A stretch of 37,053 bases of DNA, from contig PWGF01000233.1 of NCBI GenBank assembly GCA_003554375.1, forward strand, positions 1-37,053, read 5' to 3'. Positions within the stretch are counted from its first letter, which is position 1, and each line of letters opens with the position of its first letter. The notes under the pieces were generated by a model. That model was not told where the DNA came from. It was given only the letters and a program-made list of their open reading frames with translations, and made no database searches. The translations under genes and the position numbers were made by a program. Shown one piece after another: positions 6,591 to 16,042 of the stretch. This DNA is from Spirochaetaceae bacterium (GTDB lineage Bacteria; Spirochaetota; Spirochaetia; DSM-27196; SKKC01).

Positions 6591-8411
6591 TCACGGTACG
6601 AGCGCGCCGGCCTGTGCAATGACTCCGCCCAGGAGAAATGCCGTGAGAACCGTCAGGACAAGTAACGCGATCGCAGCGCGCAGGCCGAGCTCTCTGGCCA
6701 AAGTGGCTACCACGGCAATGCACGGCACGTAGAAAAGTCCGACTGTGGCGCCCACGAAAGTCTGAAGCGTCGTGATCTCCATGTCCAGGAGCGGAAGCAC
6801 GGTGAGCTCCCGCCGCACGACGCCGAGTAGCAGCGGCGTCGCAGCCTCCTCCGGGAGACGAAGCCAGCCGGTCACGATGGGTGAGAGAAGCGCGCCGACC
6901 CGAGTCAGGATTCGGGTTTCGTAGAGGACCGCCGCGACGCCGACAGCCGCGACCATCGGGAGGGCACCGTCGACGAGGAAGTGCCGGACTCTTGCCAGAA
7001 GCTTCCGGCCCAGAACGCGCGGCTGTGGCACCAGGAGCTCCGGGATCTCCAGGATGAGTTCCGAGCGGCGGCCGGGAAGGAGTGCGTCCATCGCGAGACC
7101 TGCGACGGCGATGACGGCGAAGGAGAGACCGAAGAGCGCGACGACAAGCAGTATGCTCCGCTCGGCAAGCAGCGCAAAGATAGCGCCGGTTTGGGCAATG
7201 CATGGGACGGCAAGCGATATGAGGGTCGCCACGATGGCGCGTTCTCTGCCGGATCCCATGGCGCGCGTCGAGAGAATGCCCGGAATCGCGCATCCGTACC
7301 CAAGCAGGAGCGAGATGACATGTGACCCCCGCAATCCGATCTTACCCAGAAGCCCGTCGAGGAGAATTGCCAGTCGCGGAAGGTATCCGGAGTCCTCGAG
7401 GAGAGCCAGCACGAAGTAGAAGGAGAGTACGTATGGCAGCACCAGGGTAAACGGCCACTCGATGCCTTTGATGAGGAAGCCGTACTCGCCGATGAGAACG
7501 TCACGGGCAATCCCGGCCGGGACGAGTGACGCGACCCCTTCGCTCAAGGCCGGGAAGAGGTATCCTCGAGCTATAGGGAGGAGGAATGCCTGTCGAACCC
7601 CCATCCCGATGCCCACGATTGCCCCGAAGCTCACCGCAAGCACCCCGAAGGCAATCAGGAGTCCCGGCCACGGGTGCACCAGGGCGTCGCTCTGCGCTGG
7701 GTAGGATGCGGTCCGATCCCGCGGGTGGCCCGCCGGAGGCGCAGGTGCGGCCGGATTCCGCCCTTCGAGGTCCTGGATCTCCTCGAAGTGATCGGGGCAG
7801 TTGGAGCGCTCGGAGACGCATTCCTGTGCGATCTCTTCCGCGTGACGCCAGTAATCGCCTGTGAACGGTTCGGGGACTCTCGGGTGACTCAAAGTATCGG
7901 CAGCCGCAGCCTCCAATCGGTCCAAGCCCCACCCCGTGGGAGCGGCAGTGGGGATCACCGGTACGCCGAGGCGCTTCGCCAGAGTCTCCGAATCGATGTG
8001 TTTCCCCTTAGCGCCGGCAATGTCGCTTCGGTTGAGCGCGACCACCGTAGGCTGCCCCGCGGGAAGAATTTCGAGAATGAGGTGTATGCTACTATCCAGG
8101 TTGACCGCGTCGGCAACGATGAGAACGAGGTCGGCCGGCTCGCGGAGCATGGTGGTGGTGACTCGCTCGGCCTCGTTTGTTGCCGAAAGCGAATACGACC
8201 CGGGTAGGTCGATCAGGGATATCCGGTGGTCGCCGAGCCTGCCCGTGCCCTGAGCAACGTCCACCGTGGTCCCCGGGTAGTTCGCCACCAAGGTCCCGAG
8301 TCCGGTGAGCCGGTTAAAAATGACGCTCTTGCCGACGTTCGGCGGTCCGGCAAGAAGCACGCGGCGCGTGCCTCTGCAATGGGCTGTTCGAGAAGCTTTG
8401 TGGCATCTCAT
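6591..8411 (-). CDS. feoB: Ferrous iron transport protein B (short, divergent permease core)
   Basis: 606 aa; G1 GPPNVGKS, VANYPGTTVDVAQG, G3 DLPGSYSL, G4 NRSD; Gate-type repeats around GYGCAIPGILSTRAM and multiple TM helices. Start lies 3 nt after the stop of the upstream FeoA-fusion ORF. Confidence 0.88.
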   Translation of the reverse strand: MRCHKASRTAHCRGTRRVLLAGPPNVGKSVIFNRLTGLGTLVANYPGTTVDVAQGTGRLGDHRISLIDLPGSYSLSATNEAERVTTTMLREPADLVLIVADAVNLDSSIHLILEILPAGQPTVVALNRSDIAGAKGKHIDSETLAKRLGVPVIPTAAPTGWGLDRLEAAAADTLSHPRVPEPFTGDYWRHAEEIAQECVSERSNCPDHFEEIQDLEGRNPAAPAPPAGHPRDRTASYPAQSDALVHPWPGLLIAFGVLAVSFGAIVGIGMGVRQAFLLPIARGYLFPALSEGVASLVPAGIARDVLIGEYGFLIKGIEWPFTLVLPYVLSFYFVLALLEDSGYLPRLAILLDGLLGKIGLRGSHVISLLLGYGCAIPGILSTRAMGSGRERAIVATLISLAVPCIAQTGAIFALLAERSILLVVALFGLSFAVIAVAGLAMDALLPGRRSELILEIPELLVPQPRVLGRKLLARVRHFLVDGALPMVAAVGVAAVLYETRILTRVGALLSPIVTGWLRLPEEAATPLLLGVVRRELTVLPLLDMEITTLQTFVGATVGLFYVPCIAVVATLARELGLRAAIALLVLTVLTAFLLGGVIAQAGALVP

Positions 8412-8414
8412 GCG

Positions 8415-10193
8415 CTAGCTCTCGGCGGGCGTGACCCGGATTGCCGCGGCTACGGAACGCTGAAGAGCAACCTGACGCTCACCTACGGAGCACACGATCG
8501 GACCGCCCCATGGCTGCGCGGCTACGACCGTACACGGTTTTCCCGGCCGGAACCCAAGGGCTGCAAGCTGCGGGAGGTCAGGAGCATCTGCGATGGTTCC
8601 GCGTTGTTTTGGAGCAAGGTCGCAGAGGGCGCAGGCGAGCCCCCCTTCGCCGGCGCGGGGGCAGGGCTCGGAGGGCGGAGAGGCTTTGCGGCCTGCCCCG
8701 TCTGCATGCGCCGGTACTTCCGGGTTGCCTGAGTGCCGGCTGCCGGGGCGGGCCGGATTCAGCGAGCGAGCACCGTCTTTTGTTACCATCACGAGCTCCT
8801 TTCCTGCCGGCAGTTTCCGGCTCCTGCCGGGATCGAGAATCCCGAGATTGGCGGGTGTTAACCGCTCGTAGACACGCGACAACTCCCCTCTTGGGTTCCG
8901 ATACAGTATACGTGTTCCGGGTTCCGCTGCCGCCACGATGTGACGAAGCACTGCCGCCTTTGGAACGACGTGGAGCGCAACTATCACCGCAGCGAATCCG
9001 ACGCACGGGAAGCGCAGGGCATCACGGCAGATTATCCGCACGACCCCGCGTACGGAACGCCTCCGAACGACCTTGCGGGCTCGCCGGGCAGCGGCGCGAT
9101 CTCGTTCGAGGACGGTAACATAGCATCCTCCTGCGGCAAGCGCAATCGCAGTCGCAGGAAACGGGCCTCCCCCGACCATCAACACGTGATCTCCCGGCCG
9201 GACCCGCGCGGCGGATCGTTCCCGGTCGATCAGCGTCGCGTATGCCGTGCGGGCATAGAGCGCCCCCATCCACGGAATAGCCGCAGCCAAATGTTCCAGA
9301 GCGCCAACTCCGCGACAGACAAGGCGAGGTAGACGGGTTCGTTCAAAGCGGAAGTACCCCATTAGTGAACGTCCAACATGCCTCGTGGGCGTGTAAGCTC
9401 TGAGCGCAGGCGCGTGCCCGGATCTGTTGCGCTTTGCGGAGCCGACGTAAGCGTCGGCATTAAGGCCGGAGCTCGGGGTAAAACCGGCCCGACTCCCCGC
9501 AGCCTGAGATCGGCGGGCCTGAGATCGGCGGGCGTGACTATGGTGGGTCTGAGAATGGTCGGTCCGCCGAGAATGATTGGCCTGCTCGGTCGCGGTCGTA
9601 CCGGCCAGATGCAGCTCCGAGCGGTCGAACGTCGGCATCAGGTGGCGAACCGAGCGGCAGGGCGTATTGCGCTCCTCGAAGCGGCCGTACTCAGCTTCCA
9701 GGCTCCGCCGCGGCAGGCGAAACACCATTCGCCCTCCGACCCCATCGGCACCGTCCCCATCGGCATGCCCGGCCTGGACGCCCTTTACGAGAGAACGAGC
9801 TACGTTTCGTCGGATTGCGTCTTTCGGCTTTGCCTGGAGTGCAATCAGGGCGGCGTCCGCTGTAGGGAGATCGTCGGCTGCCGCATCCGCGCGTATTACC
9901 GTGAGCTGGTCCTGGAGCCCAAGGCGAATGATCAGCTCCCGCGCGTGTGTAACCGCTTCCGGATCCCGATCGATTGCAACCACCTGCACGCGAGCCATCT
10001 GTGCGCAGAGAATGGCGCTGAAGGGTACGGAGCCGCACCCCACGTTCAGGAGCCTGGTTCCGGGAACAAGCGCGAGGAGCCGGAGCTCCCGCCTGACGAG
10101 ACGCCGGTACGGCGCCGCGTAGAGCGCAAAGCCATACCGGCTTGTAGCAATTCGACGTTCCATTCTGCCAACCGCGTTGCAGATCACACCCAT
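8415..10193 (-). CDS. Tandem nicotianamine-synthase-like SAM-dependent transferase domains fused to a C-terminal FeoA domain
   Basis: Internal ATG at 10193 with upstream AGAAAGGA Shine-Dalgarno (592 aa; the N-terminal part of the annotated 794-aa ORF is probably non-coding). Domain 1: LLNVGCGSVPFSAIL...VVAIDRDPEA. Domain 2: LMVGGGPFPATAIALAAGG...VTVLERDRAAA...FAAVIVALHVVPKAAVLRHIVAAAEPGTRILYR. FeoA: LCDLAPKQRGTIADAPDLPQLAALGFRPGKPCTVVAAQPWGGPIVCSVGERQVALQRSVAAAIRV. Confidence 0.75.
   Translation of the reverse strand: MGVICNAVGRMERRIATSRYGFALYAAPYRRLVRRELRLLALVPGTRLLNVGCGSVPFSAILCAQMARVQVVAIDRDPEAVTHARELIIRLGLQDQLTVIRADAAADDLPTADAALIALQAKPKDAIRRNVARSLVKGVQAGHADGDGADGVGGRMVFRLPRRSLEAEYGRFEERNTPCRSVRHLMPTFDRSELHLAGTTATEQANHSRRTDHSQTHHSHARRSQARRSQAAGSRAGFTPSSGLNADAYVGSAKRNRSGHAPALRAYTPTRHVGRSLMGYFRFERTRLPRLVCRGVGALEHLAAAIPWMGALYARTAYATLIDRERSAARVRPGDHVLMVGGGPFPATAIALAAGGCYVTVLERDRAAARRARKVVRRRSVRGVVRIICRDALRFPCVGFAAVIVALHVVPKAAVLRHIVAAAEPGTRILYRNPRGELSRVYERLTPANLGILDPGRSRKLPAGKELVMVTKDGARSLNPARPGSRHSGNPEVPAHADGAGRKASPPSEPCPRAGEGGLACALCDLAPKQRGTIADAPDLPQLAALGFRPGKPCTVVAAQPWGGPIVCSVGERQVALQRSVAAAIRVTPAES
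9502..9561. repeat. 4 x 15-bp tandem repeat within the linker of the NAS-like/FeoA protein
   Basis: GCCTGAGATCGGCGG x2 perfect, then GCGTGACTATGGTGG and GTCTGAGAATGGTCG; encodes His/Ser/Arg-rich DHSQTHHSHARRSQARRSQ. Confidence 0.8.
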
Positions 10194-10720
10194 CCAATCG
10201 TCCTTTCTCGTTCGTTGTAGCTCTTCCGGCTCGGCCCTTCGGGCGAGCGGCCTGTCCCGTCGGGCGAGCGGCCCGGCCCTTCGGACGCGAGGCGGCGCGG
10301 GAGCAGGATCGAAGCATGCGAAACGGCCGCGCGTGCCGGCACAGGACAGTTGCCCGGCGAACCTCTGCGGGCTCGATTCCGCCCTCTCGGCAAGCCGTCT
10401 GCGCTGCAGTACTCCGCAAGCGGGCAAGAGCGACTTGCAGGGCACTTCTCGCCTGCGACCTCCTTGTTTGCCGGAGCGCCAATCTTTGCCGGGGCGCCAA
10501 CGCTCGTACATTGAGGAGAGTCGAGAAGCCGTAGACCCGCAGGCCCGTGATGGAGAAACGCGAACGCAGCCGCCGCAGCCTTCCAGAATGCGTAGACGAG
10601 CGCGCCGGCAACGCGCGCGCATCCCCATACCACGCGGAGACCTCGCCGAGTGTGTTGTGCGCTCGGCGTCACGGAAGCCGAGATTGCGCTGGGACGCTGG
10701 GCAAGGCCCGCGAAACTCAC
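10184..10720 (-). CDS. Small putative membrane protein with Cys-containing tail, first gene of the feo locus
   Basis: GTG at 10720 preceded by GAAGGAGAAA; one hydrophobic segment (VVWGCARVAGALVYAFWKAAAAAFAFLHHG), then KCPASRSCPLAEYC. Its stop overlaps the ATG of the downstream gene (10193). No family recognised; coding status inferred. Confidence 0.45.
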   Translation of the reverse strand: MSFAGLAQRPSAISASVTPSAQHTRRGLRVVWGCARVAGALVYAFWKAAAAAFAFLHHGPAGLRLLDSPQCTSVGAPAKIGAPANKEVAGEKCPASRSCPLAEYCSADGLPRGRNRARRGSPGNCPVPARAAVSHASILLPRRLASEGPGRSPDGTGRSPEGPSRKSYNERERTIGWV

Positions 10721-10802
10721 CGCTTTCTCCTTCTCGAGTAACCCAAGTGGCACCGAGACCCCTCGAAAGCCGGCGTTCCCGAGGAGTTTCGTGGAGCACA
10801 CT

Positions 10803-10849: not shown

Positions 10850-11075
10850 TGATGATCTGTTGAGAACGATAAGTCAGTGTCCTTCCATTAAATAGCTCGA
10901 ATGGTATTGATAGAAGGCGATACTCAAACGACAATAGCGTTCTCTTCACTCCAAGGCATTCTTTGCGTTCAACGCGCTTGTTCGTCCCCCTCTTTAGCGA
11001 GCTTCGAACTTACGATACCATGCGGGGCGCTCCGAAGCACGCGTAGATTCCGAGGTGGTAGAGAGGCGGAGGCTC

Positions 11076-11822
11076 ATGGCGGAGACAATGGGTACAAAAG
11101 CAGCCTTGCCCGGCAGCAGAGGCCGGGTGGTCATTGATACCAGCATATTCGTGAATCCGGACTCGATGAAATACTTCGGCGAAGGCGTAGGCCCCGCCGT
11201 GGAACGGTTCCTCGAGATCTGCCGCGAGCTCGGGCTCGAGATATACGTACCGCTCTCGGTGTTTCGAGAGCTTGCGAGCTTCCTCCCGCCATATACGCTC
11301 AAAACACTGCGCAGCCGTGCCGTGGTACGTGAGCCGGACCTCTACCATACGCATGTTCCCGCGGTGACGTTTCACACCTTCGTGCGGGAGCTGCGCCACC
11401 GCGTGAACAAAGGGCTTCAGATCGCCGAGCAGGCAATTAAGAGCGCCAACAATCCGGAGAATATCCGGTGGGTCAGACAGCACTATCGTGAGGCGCTGCG
11501 GACCGGAATCGTGGACAGCGTGGAGGATCTGGAAGTCGTGCTGCTGGCGCGCGAGGTGGACGGGATCGTCCTTACTGCGGATCAGGGGATTGCGTCGATG
11601 GCGGGCTGTTTTGGGATCGAGGTTTTTGCCGCGGAGGAATTCCTCGACTATTCCGAAGACAGCCGGACGCAGCATGGCGGGCGCGTTGATGGCGGTTCCT
11701 CAGAGGACGGCGGTTCCTCAGAGGACGGGGGTGCCTCAGAGGGTGCCTGCGCCCCAGAGGACCGTGGCACCTTAGGGGGTGACGGCACCTTAGAAAGTGA
11801 CAGCGCGTCAGAGGATGAGTGA
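11076..11822 (+). CDS. RNA ligase partner protein, PIN domain (UPF0278 / MJ_0548-like family)
   Basis: VVIDTSIFVNPDSMKYFGEGVGPAVERFLE and VDGIVLTADQGIASMAGCFGIEV; adjacent to an RNA ligase. ATG 11076 has GGCGGAGG upstream (ORF track start is GTG 11055). Confidence 0.85.
   Translation: MAETMGTKAALPGSRGRVVIDTSIFVNPDSMKYFGEGVGPAVERFLEICRELGLEIYVPLSVFRELASFLPPYTLKTLRSRAVVREPDLYHTHVPAVTFHTFVRELRHRVNKGLQIAEQAIKSANNPENIRWVRQHYREALRTGIVDSVEDLEVVLLAREVDGIVLTADQGIASMAGCFGIEVFAAEEFLDYSEDSRTQHGGRVDGGSSEDGGSSEDGGASEGACAPEDRGTLGGDGTLESDSASEDE
11694..11819 (+). repeat. 7 x 18-bp imperfect tandem repeat at the 3' end of the PIN-partner gene
   Basis: Units begin at 11694, 11712, 11730, 11748, 11766, 11784, 11802; encodes GSSEDG GSSEDG GASEGA CAPEDR GTLGGD GTLESD SASEDE, directly followed by TGA. 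Confidence 0.9.
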
Positions 11823-12909
11823 GATGGAGCACGATCGAGATCGCGACTTCGAGCAGTTCACATTCCAGGGGAAAGCGTATCGCCGGTACAAGAAGGACCG
11901 GGAATCGCCTCGGGGGACAATCGAGATCCTGGACCAGGAAGGAGCCGGAGAGCGCAGTATTCCGGGATTCCCCTCCATCAGGCGGGTATACCGTCTGAAG
12001 CAGGGAATCCGCCGCCTTTTCGGGAATAGCCCGTTTCATGCCGAAGAGAAGCTGGACGGGTACAATGTGCGGATATTCCTGCACGACGGGCGTCTTCCGG
12101 CAGCCTCGCGGGGCGGCTTCCTCTGCCCGTTCACCACGGAGTGGGCGGAAATCTGGGGCGAGGACTGTAATCTTCACCGGTTCTTCCGTGACTATCCGGA
12201 TCACGTACTGTGTGGCGAGGTTGTGGGCGATAACCCCTACAACCGGCAGCGGGATCCGGAGCTCTCCGCCGGGGCGCATTTCTTCGTCTTCGAGATTGCC
12301 GCCCCCGACGGACAGTTCCTTCGTCCCGCCGATCGCTACCGTCTCGTGGAGGAGTACGATCTTCCTGCGGTGCCGAACCTCGGCGAGTTCCACGTCCGCC
12401 GTATCGATGCGCTCTACGAGCTGCTCCGGGATCTGAACGAGCGCGGGCGGGAGGGTGTGGTGCTCAAAGATCGCCGTGGGAAACGTCGCCTGAAGTTCGT
12501 CACCCCGACGAGCGACTTGCAGGATATCCGGGATGCTCTGGCGATCGGCTTCGATATGGCGAGCGGATACTTCTTCAACAGATATATGCGTGCGGTCATA
12601 TTCGTTCGCGAGCTGGGGTTGGACGAGGCGGAGTACGCACGCCACATCGGTCAGGCTTTCCTCGACGGTGTCCCGGGTTCCCACGAGTTCTCCGAAGCAA
12701 GCGAGCAGTATCGCATCTACGTGCGTGAGAGGCGCACCTGGGAGGCCCTGTACGAGAGACTTCAGTCGCACGTTCTTCTCAAGGAGGACAACGTCGTACC
12801 GGGCAGTGCTTTCGGACGCGACATGCTTCGGGTTGACTTCCGGCGCGTCTTCCAGCGCAGCTCACACCGTTACCGGCTCATGCTCGGCGGATACCTTCAT
12901 GCCGATTGA
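11815..12909 (+). CDS. ATP-dependent RNA ligase, archaeal Pab1020/Rnl3-like family
   Basis: Motif I EKLDGYNVR, motif III-like FFVFEIA, motif IV EGVVLKD, motif V RRLKFVTP; ATG at 11815 overlaps the upstream stop (11820-11822). Confidence 0.87.
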   Translation: MSEMEHDRDRDFEQFTFQGKAYRRYKKDRESPRGTIEILDQEGAGERSIPGFPSIRRVYRLKQGIRRLFGNSPFHAEEKLDGYNVRIFLHDGRLPAASRGGFLCPFTTEWAEIWGEDCNLHRFFRDYPDHVLCGEVVGDNPYNRQRDPELSAGAHFFVFEIAAPDGQFLRPADRYRLVEEYDLPAVPNLGEFHVRRIDALYELLRDLNERGREGVVLKDRRGKRRLKFVTPTSDLQDIRDALAIGFDMASGYFFNRYMRAVIFVRELGLDEAEYARHIGQAFLDGVPGSHEFSEASEQYRIYVRERRTWEALYERLQSHVLLKEDNVVPGSAFGRDMLRVDFRRVFQRSSHRYRLMLGGYLHAD

Positions 12910-13115
12910 GGCCCGCGGTCGGCGCGGGTGGGCAGCTGCGAAAGCTTCCGAGGTTGTCTTCGCGGCTCCTGCCCCGGTTCGCGCCCGCGGCCCCGCACGC
13001 GGGGCAACCAGCAGAGCTCGCTTCTCGAACTCGAGCCTCCCGACCGTTTCCCCACACGCGGAACCGAGCTTCCGCTTGCGTGCACATGAGACCATCTCGG
13101 GGTACAATCGTCGCC

Positions 13116-14174
13116 ATGAAGCGCTGTGTGAAGGTCTTGTCGGCCGTCATTCTGGGCCTTGTTGTGCTCGGAGCCATTGCGTGCGGAACTTCGCGGTTCC
13201 TTTCGCCTCCGAATGCTGGGCGTGAGCTGGCCCGGGTGTGGGAGGTTCCTCATCCGGCGGTGGTTGCCCACCGGGGCGCTTCGTGGCTTGCGCCGGAATC
13301 AACTGCGCCGGCCTATGAGTTGGCGCGAGATCTGGGTGCGGACTATCTAGAGGCGGATCTTCAGCGTACCCGTGACAGGGTCGTCGTGGCTTTTCACGAC
13401 GAGACGCTCGAGCGCACGACCAACGTGGAGGAGGTCTTCCCCGACCGTTCAACGGATCGAATCGAGACGTTTACCTACGGCGAGCTCATGGAGCTCGATC
13501 ACGGAAGCTGGTTTAACCAGGCATACCCTGAGCGCGCTCGCGATGCTTACGAGGGCCTGGGCGTCGTGACGCTTCGGGAGCTCATTGAAATTGCGGAGGC
13601 GGGACCGAACAACCCCGGCCTCTACCTTGAGACGAAGTCCGCTCAGAACCATCCGGGGATCGAGGAGGACGTCCTCGCGGTACTCGAGGACTTGTGCTGG
13701 TATCCGGAGGGGCCGGAGCTCGCCGGCCCGGACGTCACGGCAAACGCGGCGGTCGGGGCGCCGACGATCGATGTGGCCGCCGGCCGGAGCGGGATCATCT
13801 TCCAGTCATTTCACACCGGTAGCCTCGAGCAGCTTATCGAGCTGGCGCCGGAGATCCCAGCGGTCTATCTCATCAGCGCTGCGATGGCGGAGGAGAACGG
13901 TTTTCGCCGACATGTGAAGACCGCGACCGAGATGGGAGCTCTCGGGGTCGGGCCAGGTGGCCGGCTCGGGCTCCCGTGGAATACGGGGCACGCCCACCGG
14001 GAAGGGCTTTTGGTTCACAACTACACGATAAACCAGCCGTGGCAGATGCGGCTTCTGCGGAGCTTTGGTGCGGACGGAATCTTCACGGACCGGCCGGCGG
14101 TGGCGCTGGAGGTATTCGATCGCGCCGAAGAGATCGACGTCGATGCTATTCTGGATCGGTTGGAGCTAAAATGA
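13116..14174 (+). CDS. Glycerophosphodiester phosphodiesterase, putative lipoprotein
   Basis: MKRCVKVLSAVILGLVVLGAIAC lipobox; VVAHRGASWLAPESTAPAYELARDLGADYLEADLQRTRDRVVVAFHDETLERTTN; GIFTDRP. Confidence 0.88.
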   Translation: MKRCVKVLSAVILGLVVLGAIACGTSRFLSPPNAGRELARVWEVPHPAVVAHRGASWLAPESTAPAYELARDLGADYLEADLQRTRDRVVVAFHDETLERTTNVEEVFPDRSTDRIETFTYGELMELDHGSWFNQAYPERARDAYEGLGVVTLRELIEIAEAGPNNPGLYLETKSAQNHPGIEEDVLAVLEDLCWYPEGPELAGPDVTANAAVGAPTIDVAAGRSGIIFQSFHTGSLEQLIELAPEIPAVYLISAAMAEENGFRRHVKTATEMGALGVGPGGRLGLPWNTGHAHREGLLVHNYTINQPWQMRLLRSFGADGIFTDRPAVALEVFDRAEEIDVDAILDRLELK

Positions 14175-14192
14175 CCCCAAGGGAGGAAGGCT

Positions 14193-15227
14193 ATGACGTA
14201 CGTACCGGATTCGGAGCGATATAGCAGTATGGCATACCGGCGATGCGGTCGCAGCGGCCTTCAGCTGCCGGGCGTATCGCTTGGTCTTTGGCACAATTTC
14301 GGTGACGAGACGAGCCTGAGCAACGCGCGGGCGATGGTCCATAAGGCGTTCGATCTGGGGATCACCCATTTCGATCTTGCCAATAACTATGGCCCTCCCG
14401 CGGGCTCGGCGGAGTACAACTTTGGGCGCATCCTCCGGGAAGATCTTGCCGGGTACCGCGATGAGCTCGTTATCTCCACCAAGGCAGGGTACTACATGTG
14501 GCCGGGGCCCTACGGAGAATGGGGGTCTCGGAAGTACCTTCTGGCCAGCCTCGATCAGAGTCTCCTGCGGATGGGCCTTGACTACGTGGACATTTTCTAT
14601 TCCCACCGGTTCGATCCGAGCACGCCGCTCGAGGAGACGATGGGAGCTTTGGCAAGCGCGGTGAAGCAGGGTAAGGCGCTGTATGTGGGCATCTCCTCGT
14701 ATTCGGCGCGAAAGACGGCGGAGGCCGCGGAGATACTCCAGGACATGGGGGTCAAGCTCCTGATCCATCAGCCTTCCTACTCGATGTTGAATCGCTGGGT
14801 GGAGGAGGGGCTTCTGGACGAGCTCGAGCAGCGCGGGATCGGCGCCATTGCGTTCTCTCCGTTGGCTCAAGGGCTTCTGACCGGGAAGTACTTGGACGGC
14901 GTCCCGGAGGATTCGCGGGCCGTAACCGCTCCCGGCACTTTTCAGCGCGAGCGCTATCTCTCACCGGAGAATATCGAACGGATCCGCGCTCTGAATCGGG
15001 TAGCTCAGGAGCGCGGGCAGTCTCTGACACAGATGGCCCTGGCGTGGGTACTGCGAGATCGACGCATTACGTCCGTCCTGATTGGGGCGAGCCGCCCCGA
15101 GCAGATCGAGGAAAACGTAGGAGCTCTGGCCAACCTCGAGTTCTCGGAGCACGAGTTGGCGGAGATCGACCGCCACGCCCAAGAGGGGGATATCAACCTC
15201 TGGGCGTCTTCGAGCGAAGCCGGATGA
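14193..15227 (+). CDS. Aldo/keto reductase, YghZ/L-glyceraldehyde-3-phosphate reductase-like
   Basis: LPGVSLGLWHNFGD, FDLANNYGPPAGSAEYNFGRIL, STKAGYYMWPGPYGEWGSRKYLLASLDQSL, DYVDIFYSHRFDP. Confidence 0.9.
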   Translation: MTYVPDSERYSSMAYRRCGRSGLQLPGVSLGLWHNFGDETSLSNARAMVHKAFDLGITHFDLANNYGPPAGSAEYNFGRILREDLAGYRDELVISTKAGYYMWPGPYGEWGSRKYLLASLDQSLLRMGLDYVDIFYSHRFDPSTPLEETMGALASAVKQGKALYVGISSYSARKTAEAAEILQDMGVKLLIHQPSYSMLNRWVEEGLLDELEQRGIGAIAFSPLAQGLLTGKYLDGVPEDSRAVTAPGTFQRERYLSPENIERIRALNRVAQERGQSLTQMALAWVLRDRRITSVLIGASRPEQIEENVGALANLEFSEHELAEIDRHAQEGDINLWASSSEAG

Positions 15228-15409: not shown

Positions 15410-15634
15410 ATGAGTGTGAGTATCAATCTTGACTTTGAACAGCTGAAATCGCTCGTGGACCAGCTCTCGAGCGAAGAGGCCGCTGAGCTCGCCGAGTATT
15501 TGCAACGAAAGGCGGCGTTGGATCGTCTTGAGCGCTTTCAGGAAGAGCACAAGGATATCTCGCTGACCGAAGAGGAGATCGCCGAGGAAGTCGAAGCCGT
15601 GCGCCGCGAACGCTACGAAGGCCAACGGCACTAA
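15410..15634 (+). CDS. Antitoxin component of a PIN-type toxin-antitoxin pair
   Basis: 74-aa acidic helical ORF ending directly before a PIN ORF (stop ends 15634, next ATG 15635); upstream GGAGGG. Confidence 0.65.
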   Translation: MSVSINLDFEQLKSLVDQLSSEEAAELAEYLQRKAALDRLERFQEEHKDISLTEEEIAEEVEAVRRERYEGQRH

Positions 15635-16042
15635 ATGACGATTGTCCTCGACACCAACCTTTGGGTAAGTATGTTGCTGGGATTACGGGTCCGTAGACTT
15701 AGGCGGCACCTGTACAATCCGCGAATTCGGGTAGTGACCAGTAGCGAACAACGCGTCGAGCTTACCACAACGCTGTCGAAGCGAAAGTTGACGAGAGTTC
15801 TTACTCCCGCAGACCGAGAGTATCTTCTTCGCATCTATGATGACGTTGCCCACGAGATATCGGTAAGTGAGCAGGTGCACATGTGCCGGGACCCAAAGGA
15901 TGACTTTCTCCTCTCACTCGCTCTTGCCGGCCGGGCCCAGGTCATCGTCTCCGGGGACAAAGACCTCCTTGAGCTCCGAAGCTTCCGCGGGACTGAGATA
16001 CTCTCCTACAGCGAGTTCGAGAAACGGCTTGTCGCTCGATGA
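15635..16042 (+). CDS. Putative toxin, PIN domain (TIGR00305-like)
   Basis: MTIVLDTNLWVSMLLG, CRDPKDDFLLSLALAGRAQVIVSGDKDLLEL. Confidence 0.85.
   Translation: MTIVLDTNLWVSMLLGLRVRRLRRHLYNPRIRVVTSSEQRVELTTTLSKRKLTRVLTPADREYLLRIYDDVAHEISVSEQVHMCRDPKDDFLLSLALAGRAQVIVSGDKDLLELRSFRGTEILSYSEFEKRLVAR

Follow-up and report, generated by a model that had tools for sequence, protein, structure and literature searches.

The window analysed here, 37,053 nucleotides from a Spirochaetaceae bacterium, is in its entirety one contig (C499) of a 559-contig, 70%-complete MAG. Two co-directional genes lie within it. The first (11076–11822, forward strand) encodes a predicted PIN_5 metallonuclease with a spike-helix domain (248 amino acids), and the second (11815–12909, forward strand) encodes a predicted ATP-dependent RNA ligase (364 amino acids). 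The genes overlap by 8 bp at 11815–11822 on the same strand (ATGAGTGA): the ligase ATG at 11815 sits inside the 3′ end of the nuclease gene (...gATGAGTGA), whose stop codon is the TGA at 11820–11822. The initial annotation had reported this overlap, as well as the PIN motifs VVIDTSIFVNPD...YFG and VDGIVLTADQGI and the ligase motifs EKLDGYNVR and EGVVLKD, and each was found again in the respective reading frame. The start of the nuclease gene is ambiguous, with GTG at 11055 or ATG at 11091 as alternatives to 11076. Its 3′ part contains 18-bp tandem repeats (11691–11801, +; Tandem Repeats Finder) that code for the C-terminal tail of the protein.

The product of 11076–11822 is almost certainly a HARP, a homolog of the Aquifex RNase P. 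HARP is a protein-only RNase P for which complexes with pre-tRNA have been solved. The window protein scored 143.7 bits against PF08745 (cut-off 27, E 6.4e-42) and 143.2 bits against TIGR03875, "RNA ligase partner" (cut-off 95.3, E 7e-42). The family profile aligned over positions 1–200 of 206, and the core comprises residues 17–191. Its PDB matches were RNA-free RNase P chains only (best E 1.3e-34). The AlphaFold model has a pLDDT above 90 across most of the core, and the first 34 Foldseek matches were all HARP structures (E 1e-16 to 1e-9), with VapC-like PIN proteins ranked behind them at about 1e-3. A VapBC toxin-antitoxin identity was rejected on this difference, and because the partner is a ligase and not a small upstream antitoxin. 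The initial annotation was therefore correct in naming an "RNA ligase partner" distinct from ordinary VapC, but it missed that this family is HARP.

Residues were mapped onto Aq880, the Aquifex aeolicus HARP (PDB 7f3e, 8kd9), with which the window protein shares the fold at about 35% identity. The predicted active-site aspartates D21, D147, D151, and D169 correspond to Aq880 D7, D138, D142, and D160, and are invariant in all 13 HARPs of the tandem lineage described below. Two long helices in the model (96–122 and 128–142) form the spike-helix domain, and the basic tRNA-elbow residues R107, R109, K112, R134, R138, and R142 are kept. The Aq880 elbow arginines R94, R96, R125, R129, and R133 are retained in the window protein and, according to the alignment, are likewise invariant in 13/13 tandem HARPs. 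In Aq880 the mutation R129A abolishes activity and R125A cripples it (PMC8266387). Because these arginines are invariant and their loss is damaging, an RNA with a tRNA-like elbow is a plausible substrate, altered in detail.

Other positions differ from Aq880. In the window HARP R102 is replaced by Q115, K127 by H136, and R123 by W132. The K127 position is H, Q, or E in 12 of the 13 tandem HARPs, and the R102 position is Q or H in four of them, the window among these. The spike hairpin measures 15 residues between two fixed anchors in the window protein and 15–16 in all 13 tandem HARPs, against 17–22 in all 37 others measured (19 in Aquifex). Since the hairpin is shorter and the basic residue at 127, and in some at 102, is partly lost, tRNA-elbow binding in tandem HARPs may differ from that of Aq880. 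The window HARP also carries an extra acidic tail of 45 amino acids, a low-complexity region at about residues 202–248 that is predicted to be disordered (pLDDT about 50–60). None of the other HARPs aligned has such a tail, and its length is possibly variable. The alignment had raised the suspicion that tandem HARPs lack the oligomerising C-terminal helix. This was discarded, as the window model retains a helix at 186–201.

The second gene product is, with near certainty, Rnl3, the Pab1020-type RNA ligase. It scored 234.9 bits against TIGR01209 (cut-off 136.9, E 1.3e-69) over residues 21–363, covering profile positions 30–374 of 375, and 87.7 bits against PF09414 (cut-off 27); Pfam Lig_C stayed below threshold (22.2 bits against 25). 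Among PDB sequences it matched PAB1020 (2vug, E 1.3e-50) and the Palaeococcus RNA ligase (8uce, E 4.4e-53). The structure model (pLDDT 92) found 8uce in Foldseek with E 6.8e-37, and the fold match to 8uce and 2vug is full-length, C-terminal region included (TMq 0.86–0.88). The predicted nucleotidyl-lysine is K79 in motif I (EEKLDGYNVR), and motif IV (EGVVLKD) lies at 213–219. Residues E77-E78-K79-x-D81-G82-Y83-N84, E213-G214, and K227 are invariant in 18 aligned ligases. An ATP-dependent DNA ligase identity was rejected (PF01068 16.3 bits, cut-off 26.2), and the earlier assignment to Pab1020/Rnl3 thus held. The window ligase resembles the Pab1020, MthRnl, and Palaeococcus enzymes (PDB 2vug, 5d1o, 8uce) over its full length, including the motif I lysine and motif IV, at 30–33% identity (Foldseek). 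It differs from them in lying directly downstream of, and overlapping, a HARP gene.

Composition argues that the contig is a true part of its MAG. Its tetranucleotide make-up correlates with that of the other contigs of the MAG at r 0.93 (26 kb of those compared) and with a same-family genome at r 0.83, but only at r 0.42 with a Desulfobacteraceae genome that has a related pair. GC and GC3 of the HARP–Rnl3 pair are those of the surrounding contig. A GDPD–aldo/keto reductase pair resembling window 12906–15227 was found in a same-family genome at 28–33% identity (about 0.74 Mb compared), a weak match as to contig taxonomy. Nothing shared among HARP–Rnl3 loci was found beside the pair, whether a third gene in the operon, an ncRNA, or a tRNA. 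At 15410–16042 (+), close to the HARP operon, a small ORF precedes a gene for a PIN_3 domain protein, and the two make up an ordinary toxin-antitoxin-like pair of the VapC type. On the reverse strand, directly upstream of feoB (6591–8411), lies an ORF (8415–10799) that combines nicotianamine-synthase/methyltransferase-like domains with a FeoA domain at its C-terminus; for iron or metal uptake genes this layout is unusual.

The association of HARP with Rnl3 was published in 2025, and its function was left unresolved there (Seshadri & Gopalan, mBio 2025, PMC12153264). The initial annotation had likewise called the role unresolved, and it had overlooked this publication. According to that paper, the ligase is also present in 665 of 751 HARP-positive genomes, and the two genes are close together in about 80% of bacterial cases, usually in a bidirectional arrangement. 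Co-linear HARP and ligase genes are given there for 10 cases only, in Sulfolobales and one Desulfonatronospira. Spirochaetes are not named as HARP bearers in its main text, and they are likewise absent from the list of HARP-bearing bacterial phyla in a 2024 review. The window pair is like the published association in that the same two families co-occur and are often adjacent. It is unlike it in being co-linear and overlapping, and in belonging to a tandem bacterial lineage whose HARPs have a hairpin length peculiar to them.

The earlier expectation that the two genes co-occur in other genomes was borne out in two phyla. In the window's phylum (393 genomes) HARP and Rnl3 exceeded their cut-offs in the same 5 genomes, and they were adjacent in all 5. 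In a second phylum, that of a Desulfobacteraceae relative (395 genomes), both full-length families were found in the same 21 genomes; G430, with a marginal C-terminal PIN match, was left out of the HARP count. The chance of identical sets is 1.3e-11 in the first phylum and 2.6e-35 in the second if genomes are assumed to be independent, which they are not. In 15 of the 21 second-phylum genomes a search of 1.5 kb on either side of the ligase gave no HARP, so the genes are kept together in genomes even if unlinked. Co-occurrence could arise from shared selection without a shared substrate.

Gene order was compared at 35 ligase loci with named organisms, gathered by ligase alignment, of which 30 had HARP within the fetched DNA. 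HARP is followed by Rnl3 on the same strand in 12 of these (13 with the window), the genes are tail to tail in 17, and they lie ~4.5 kb apart in one. The tandem set extends over several bacterial phyla and includes Desulfobacterales, Dadabacteria, a record titled Deltaproteobacteria, HR37, Anaerolineae, and the spirochaetes UBA5550, UBA5763, and AS06. At every one of the 13 tandem loci the ligase start (or an ATGA overlap) is about −8 to +18 bases from the HARP stop. This spacing is therefore a lineage trait and not chance, and the co-translation proposed in the initial annotation is probable on this evidence. Tandem pairs are set apart as one clade by a branch that is supported at 100/100 in the ligase trees and at 100/99 to 100/100 in the HARP trees. 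The branch was unchanged after 18 further HARPs and more ligases were added, the larger HARP tree coming with long-branch warnings. Branching of the tandem pairs is largely alike in the two trees: HARP and Rnl3 have been co-inherited. The window pair is thus the co-linear, overlapping form that marks a distinct bacterial lineage of a known two-protein system.

At one tandem locus, in the spirochaete AS06rmzACSIP_338 (L044:3254–3300; G192, the same as L071), the ligase starts in an ATGA overlap and is interrupted about 12 codons later by a TAG in frame. This may be a pseudogene, a sequencing error, or a sign of a downstream start. At L116 (G470:C1:981406–983234) a ligase and a HARP stand side by side and both appear frame-broken, through either joint decay or assembly indels.

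Both protein trees nest the window pair among Desulfobacterales (ligase 100/99, HARP 100/97), and a topology uniting the window ligase with those of the other tandem spirochaetes was rejected (AU p 0.0014). Within the window's family HARP is present in one of 7 genomes, that of this species only, and the 6 others lack the pair. As the pair is absent from these six and its ligase does not group with other tandem spirochaetes, the trees and gene content support a lateral transfer into this spirochaete. The initial annotation had also proposed such a transfer, with emphasis on archaea; when compared with archaeal homologues, both proteins were closest to bacterial Desulfobacterales. The immediate source was probably bacterial, from a Desulfobacterales-like pool, and an archaeal immediate source was rejected on the same trees, many archaeal Rnl3 being outside the sampling. 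In the fifth spirochaete pair (G202) the two genes converge. Since the window ligase stands apart from other tandem spirochaetes and the G202 pair is convergent, the phylum probably gained HARP–Rnl3 about three times.

Most carrier genomes also contain the housekeeping RNA enzymes. Of 13 tandem-lineage genomes, 9 have a match to rnpB, the RNase P RNA gene, above its cut-off and one more has a weak match; HARP is therefore usually not the sole RNase P. In this respect the lineage differs from Aquifex, the host of Aq880, which has no RNA-based RNase P. RtcB was found in 12 of 14 HARP–Rnl3 genomes. It joins other RNA ends than Rnl3 does, so Rnl3 is not simply a general RNA ligase.

RNase P-type cleavage by PIN nucleases leaves a 5′-phosphate and a 3′-hydroxyl, an established chemistry. 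The same ends are joined by Rnl3, as described for MthRnl (PMC5599603). The preferred reading, held at about even confidence, is that the operon cuts tRNA-elbow-like RNA and then seals its 5′-P/3′-OH ends in an accessory RNA-maturation or repair task. A HARP oligomer would bind the RNA through the conserved spike-helix arginines, and cleavage would leave the 5′-phosphate on the RNA body and the 3′-OH on the upstream piece. Rnl3 would join these ends after lysine- and RNA-adenylation, and sealing the HARP-made 5′ end to a 3′-OH would circularise or rejoin the RNA. The pair would work alongside RtcB and the RNA-based housekeeping RNase P. Against this reading, four recombinant bacterial HARPs are reported in PMC12153264 to have left pre-tRNA uncut, and archaeal knockouts of HARP or ligase to have grown normally.

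Stress repair of RNA without a common substrate is a somewhat unlikely alternative. HARP would be a rugged backup RNase P, and Rnl3 would independently reseal RNAs that break in saline, alkaline, or hot cells, the same conditions favouring both. The report of HARP mainly from extreme habitats (PMC12153264) fits this, as do the persistence of both genes unlinked in many second-phylum genomes and the retention of elbow-binding residues needed for pre-tRNA cutting. However, identical presence and absence over 788 genomes, together with a tight conserved operon, exceed what a shared habitat would lead one to expect. Most of these genomes have an RNA-based RNase P, and at least one tandem-lineage record (L063) is titled a groundwater isolate, which is not obviously extreme.

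A more specific form of the cut-and-seal reading is unlikely: the tandem pair would be a specialised machine in which the short-hairpin HARP, no longer mainly an RNase P, generates a 5′ end in a bacterial RNA, which the co-translated ligase circularises at once. If true, bacteria would own a dedicated protein-only RNA circularisation pathway.

The PIN fold and the two co-directional, overlapping genes also recall a toxin-antitoxin-like or regulated-nuclease pair, in which HARP would damage tRNA or other RNA under stress and the ligase would reverse the damage. VapC structures rank many orders of magnitude below HARP structures, however, and both genes are retained though often unlinked. PADLOC defence models match neither HARP nor Rnl3, and a defence system was rejected on this result. 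The toxin-antitoxin idea is raised in PMC12153264, where the archaeal ligase knockout is nonetheless viable, and it is very unlikely to apply.

As in Aquifex, HARP could instead have taken over from the RNA-based enzyme as RNase P in this organism. Neither rnpA nor rnpB was found in the window's MAG, and both are present in 8/8 other spirochaete genomes tested. In relatives the two genes stand in a fixed order (dnaA-dnaN-recF-rpmH-rnpA-yidC-jag and rpoD-Zn ribbon-rnpB-TPR-mreB), with neighbours that we take to be these genes from a reading of their proteins. Searches of the MAG for the neighbours (recF, rpmH, yidC, jag; the zinc-ribbon gene, mreB) gave weak matches of 25–30% identity and no clear orthologue. 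Because these conserved neighbours are also missing from the 70%-complete MAG, what is best seen here is an assembly gap, with the loci probably unassembled, and no claim is built on it. As rnpB is also kept in other tandem-lineage genomes, replacement is highly improbable.

Fibrillarin, the methyltransferase of C/D RNPs, was absent from all 14 bacterial HARP–Rnl3 genomes searched, with positive archaeal controls, which disfavours C/D-box RNA as a bacterial substrate; judged by gene content, it is probably not the substrate in these bacteria. C/D-box maturation as proposed in archaea, with HARP trimming 5′ ends and Rnl3 circularising guide RNA, is therefore scarcely credible here, although circularisation by archaeal Rnl3 is published (the role of HARP is a hypothesis in PMC12153264).

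It is a standing puzzle why some prokaryotes retain a protein-only RNase P in addition to an RNA-based one, and the 2025 ligase link is a leading clue to it. Two standard explanations are weakened by a tandem operon whose host genomes lack fibrillarin and mostly have a normal RNase P. The HARP–Rnl3 system itself was already known; the tandem bacterial lineage, the identical genome sets in two phyla, and the nesting among Desulfobacterales are added here, with no claim that any one genome is new. A lineage with one operon offers a compact two-gene unit that eases biochemical and circRNA testing. In addition to the groundwater record L063, the tandem locus L071 comes from what resembles a bioreactor-type MAG, and the two do not easily fit the published rule that HARP is a marker of extreme environments.
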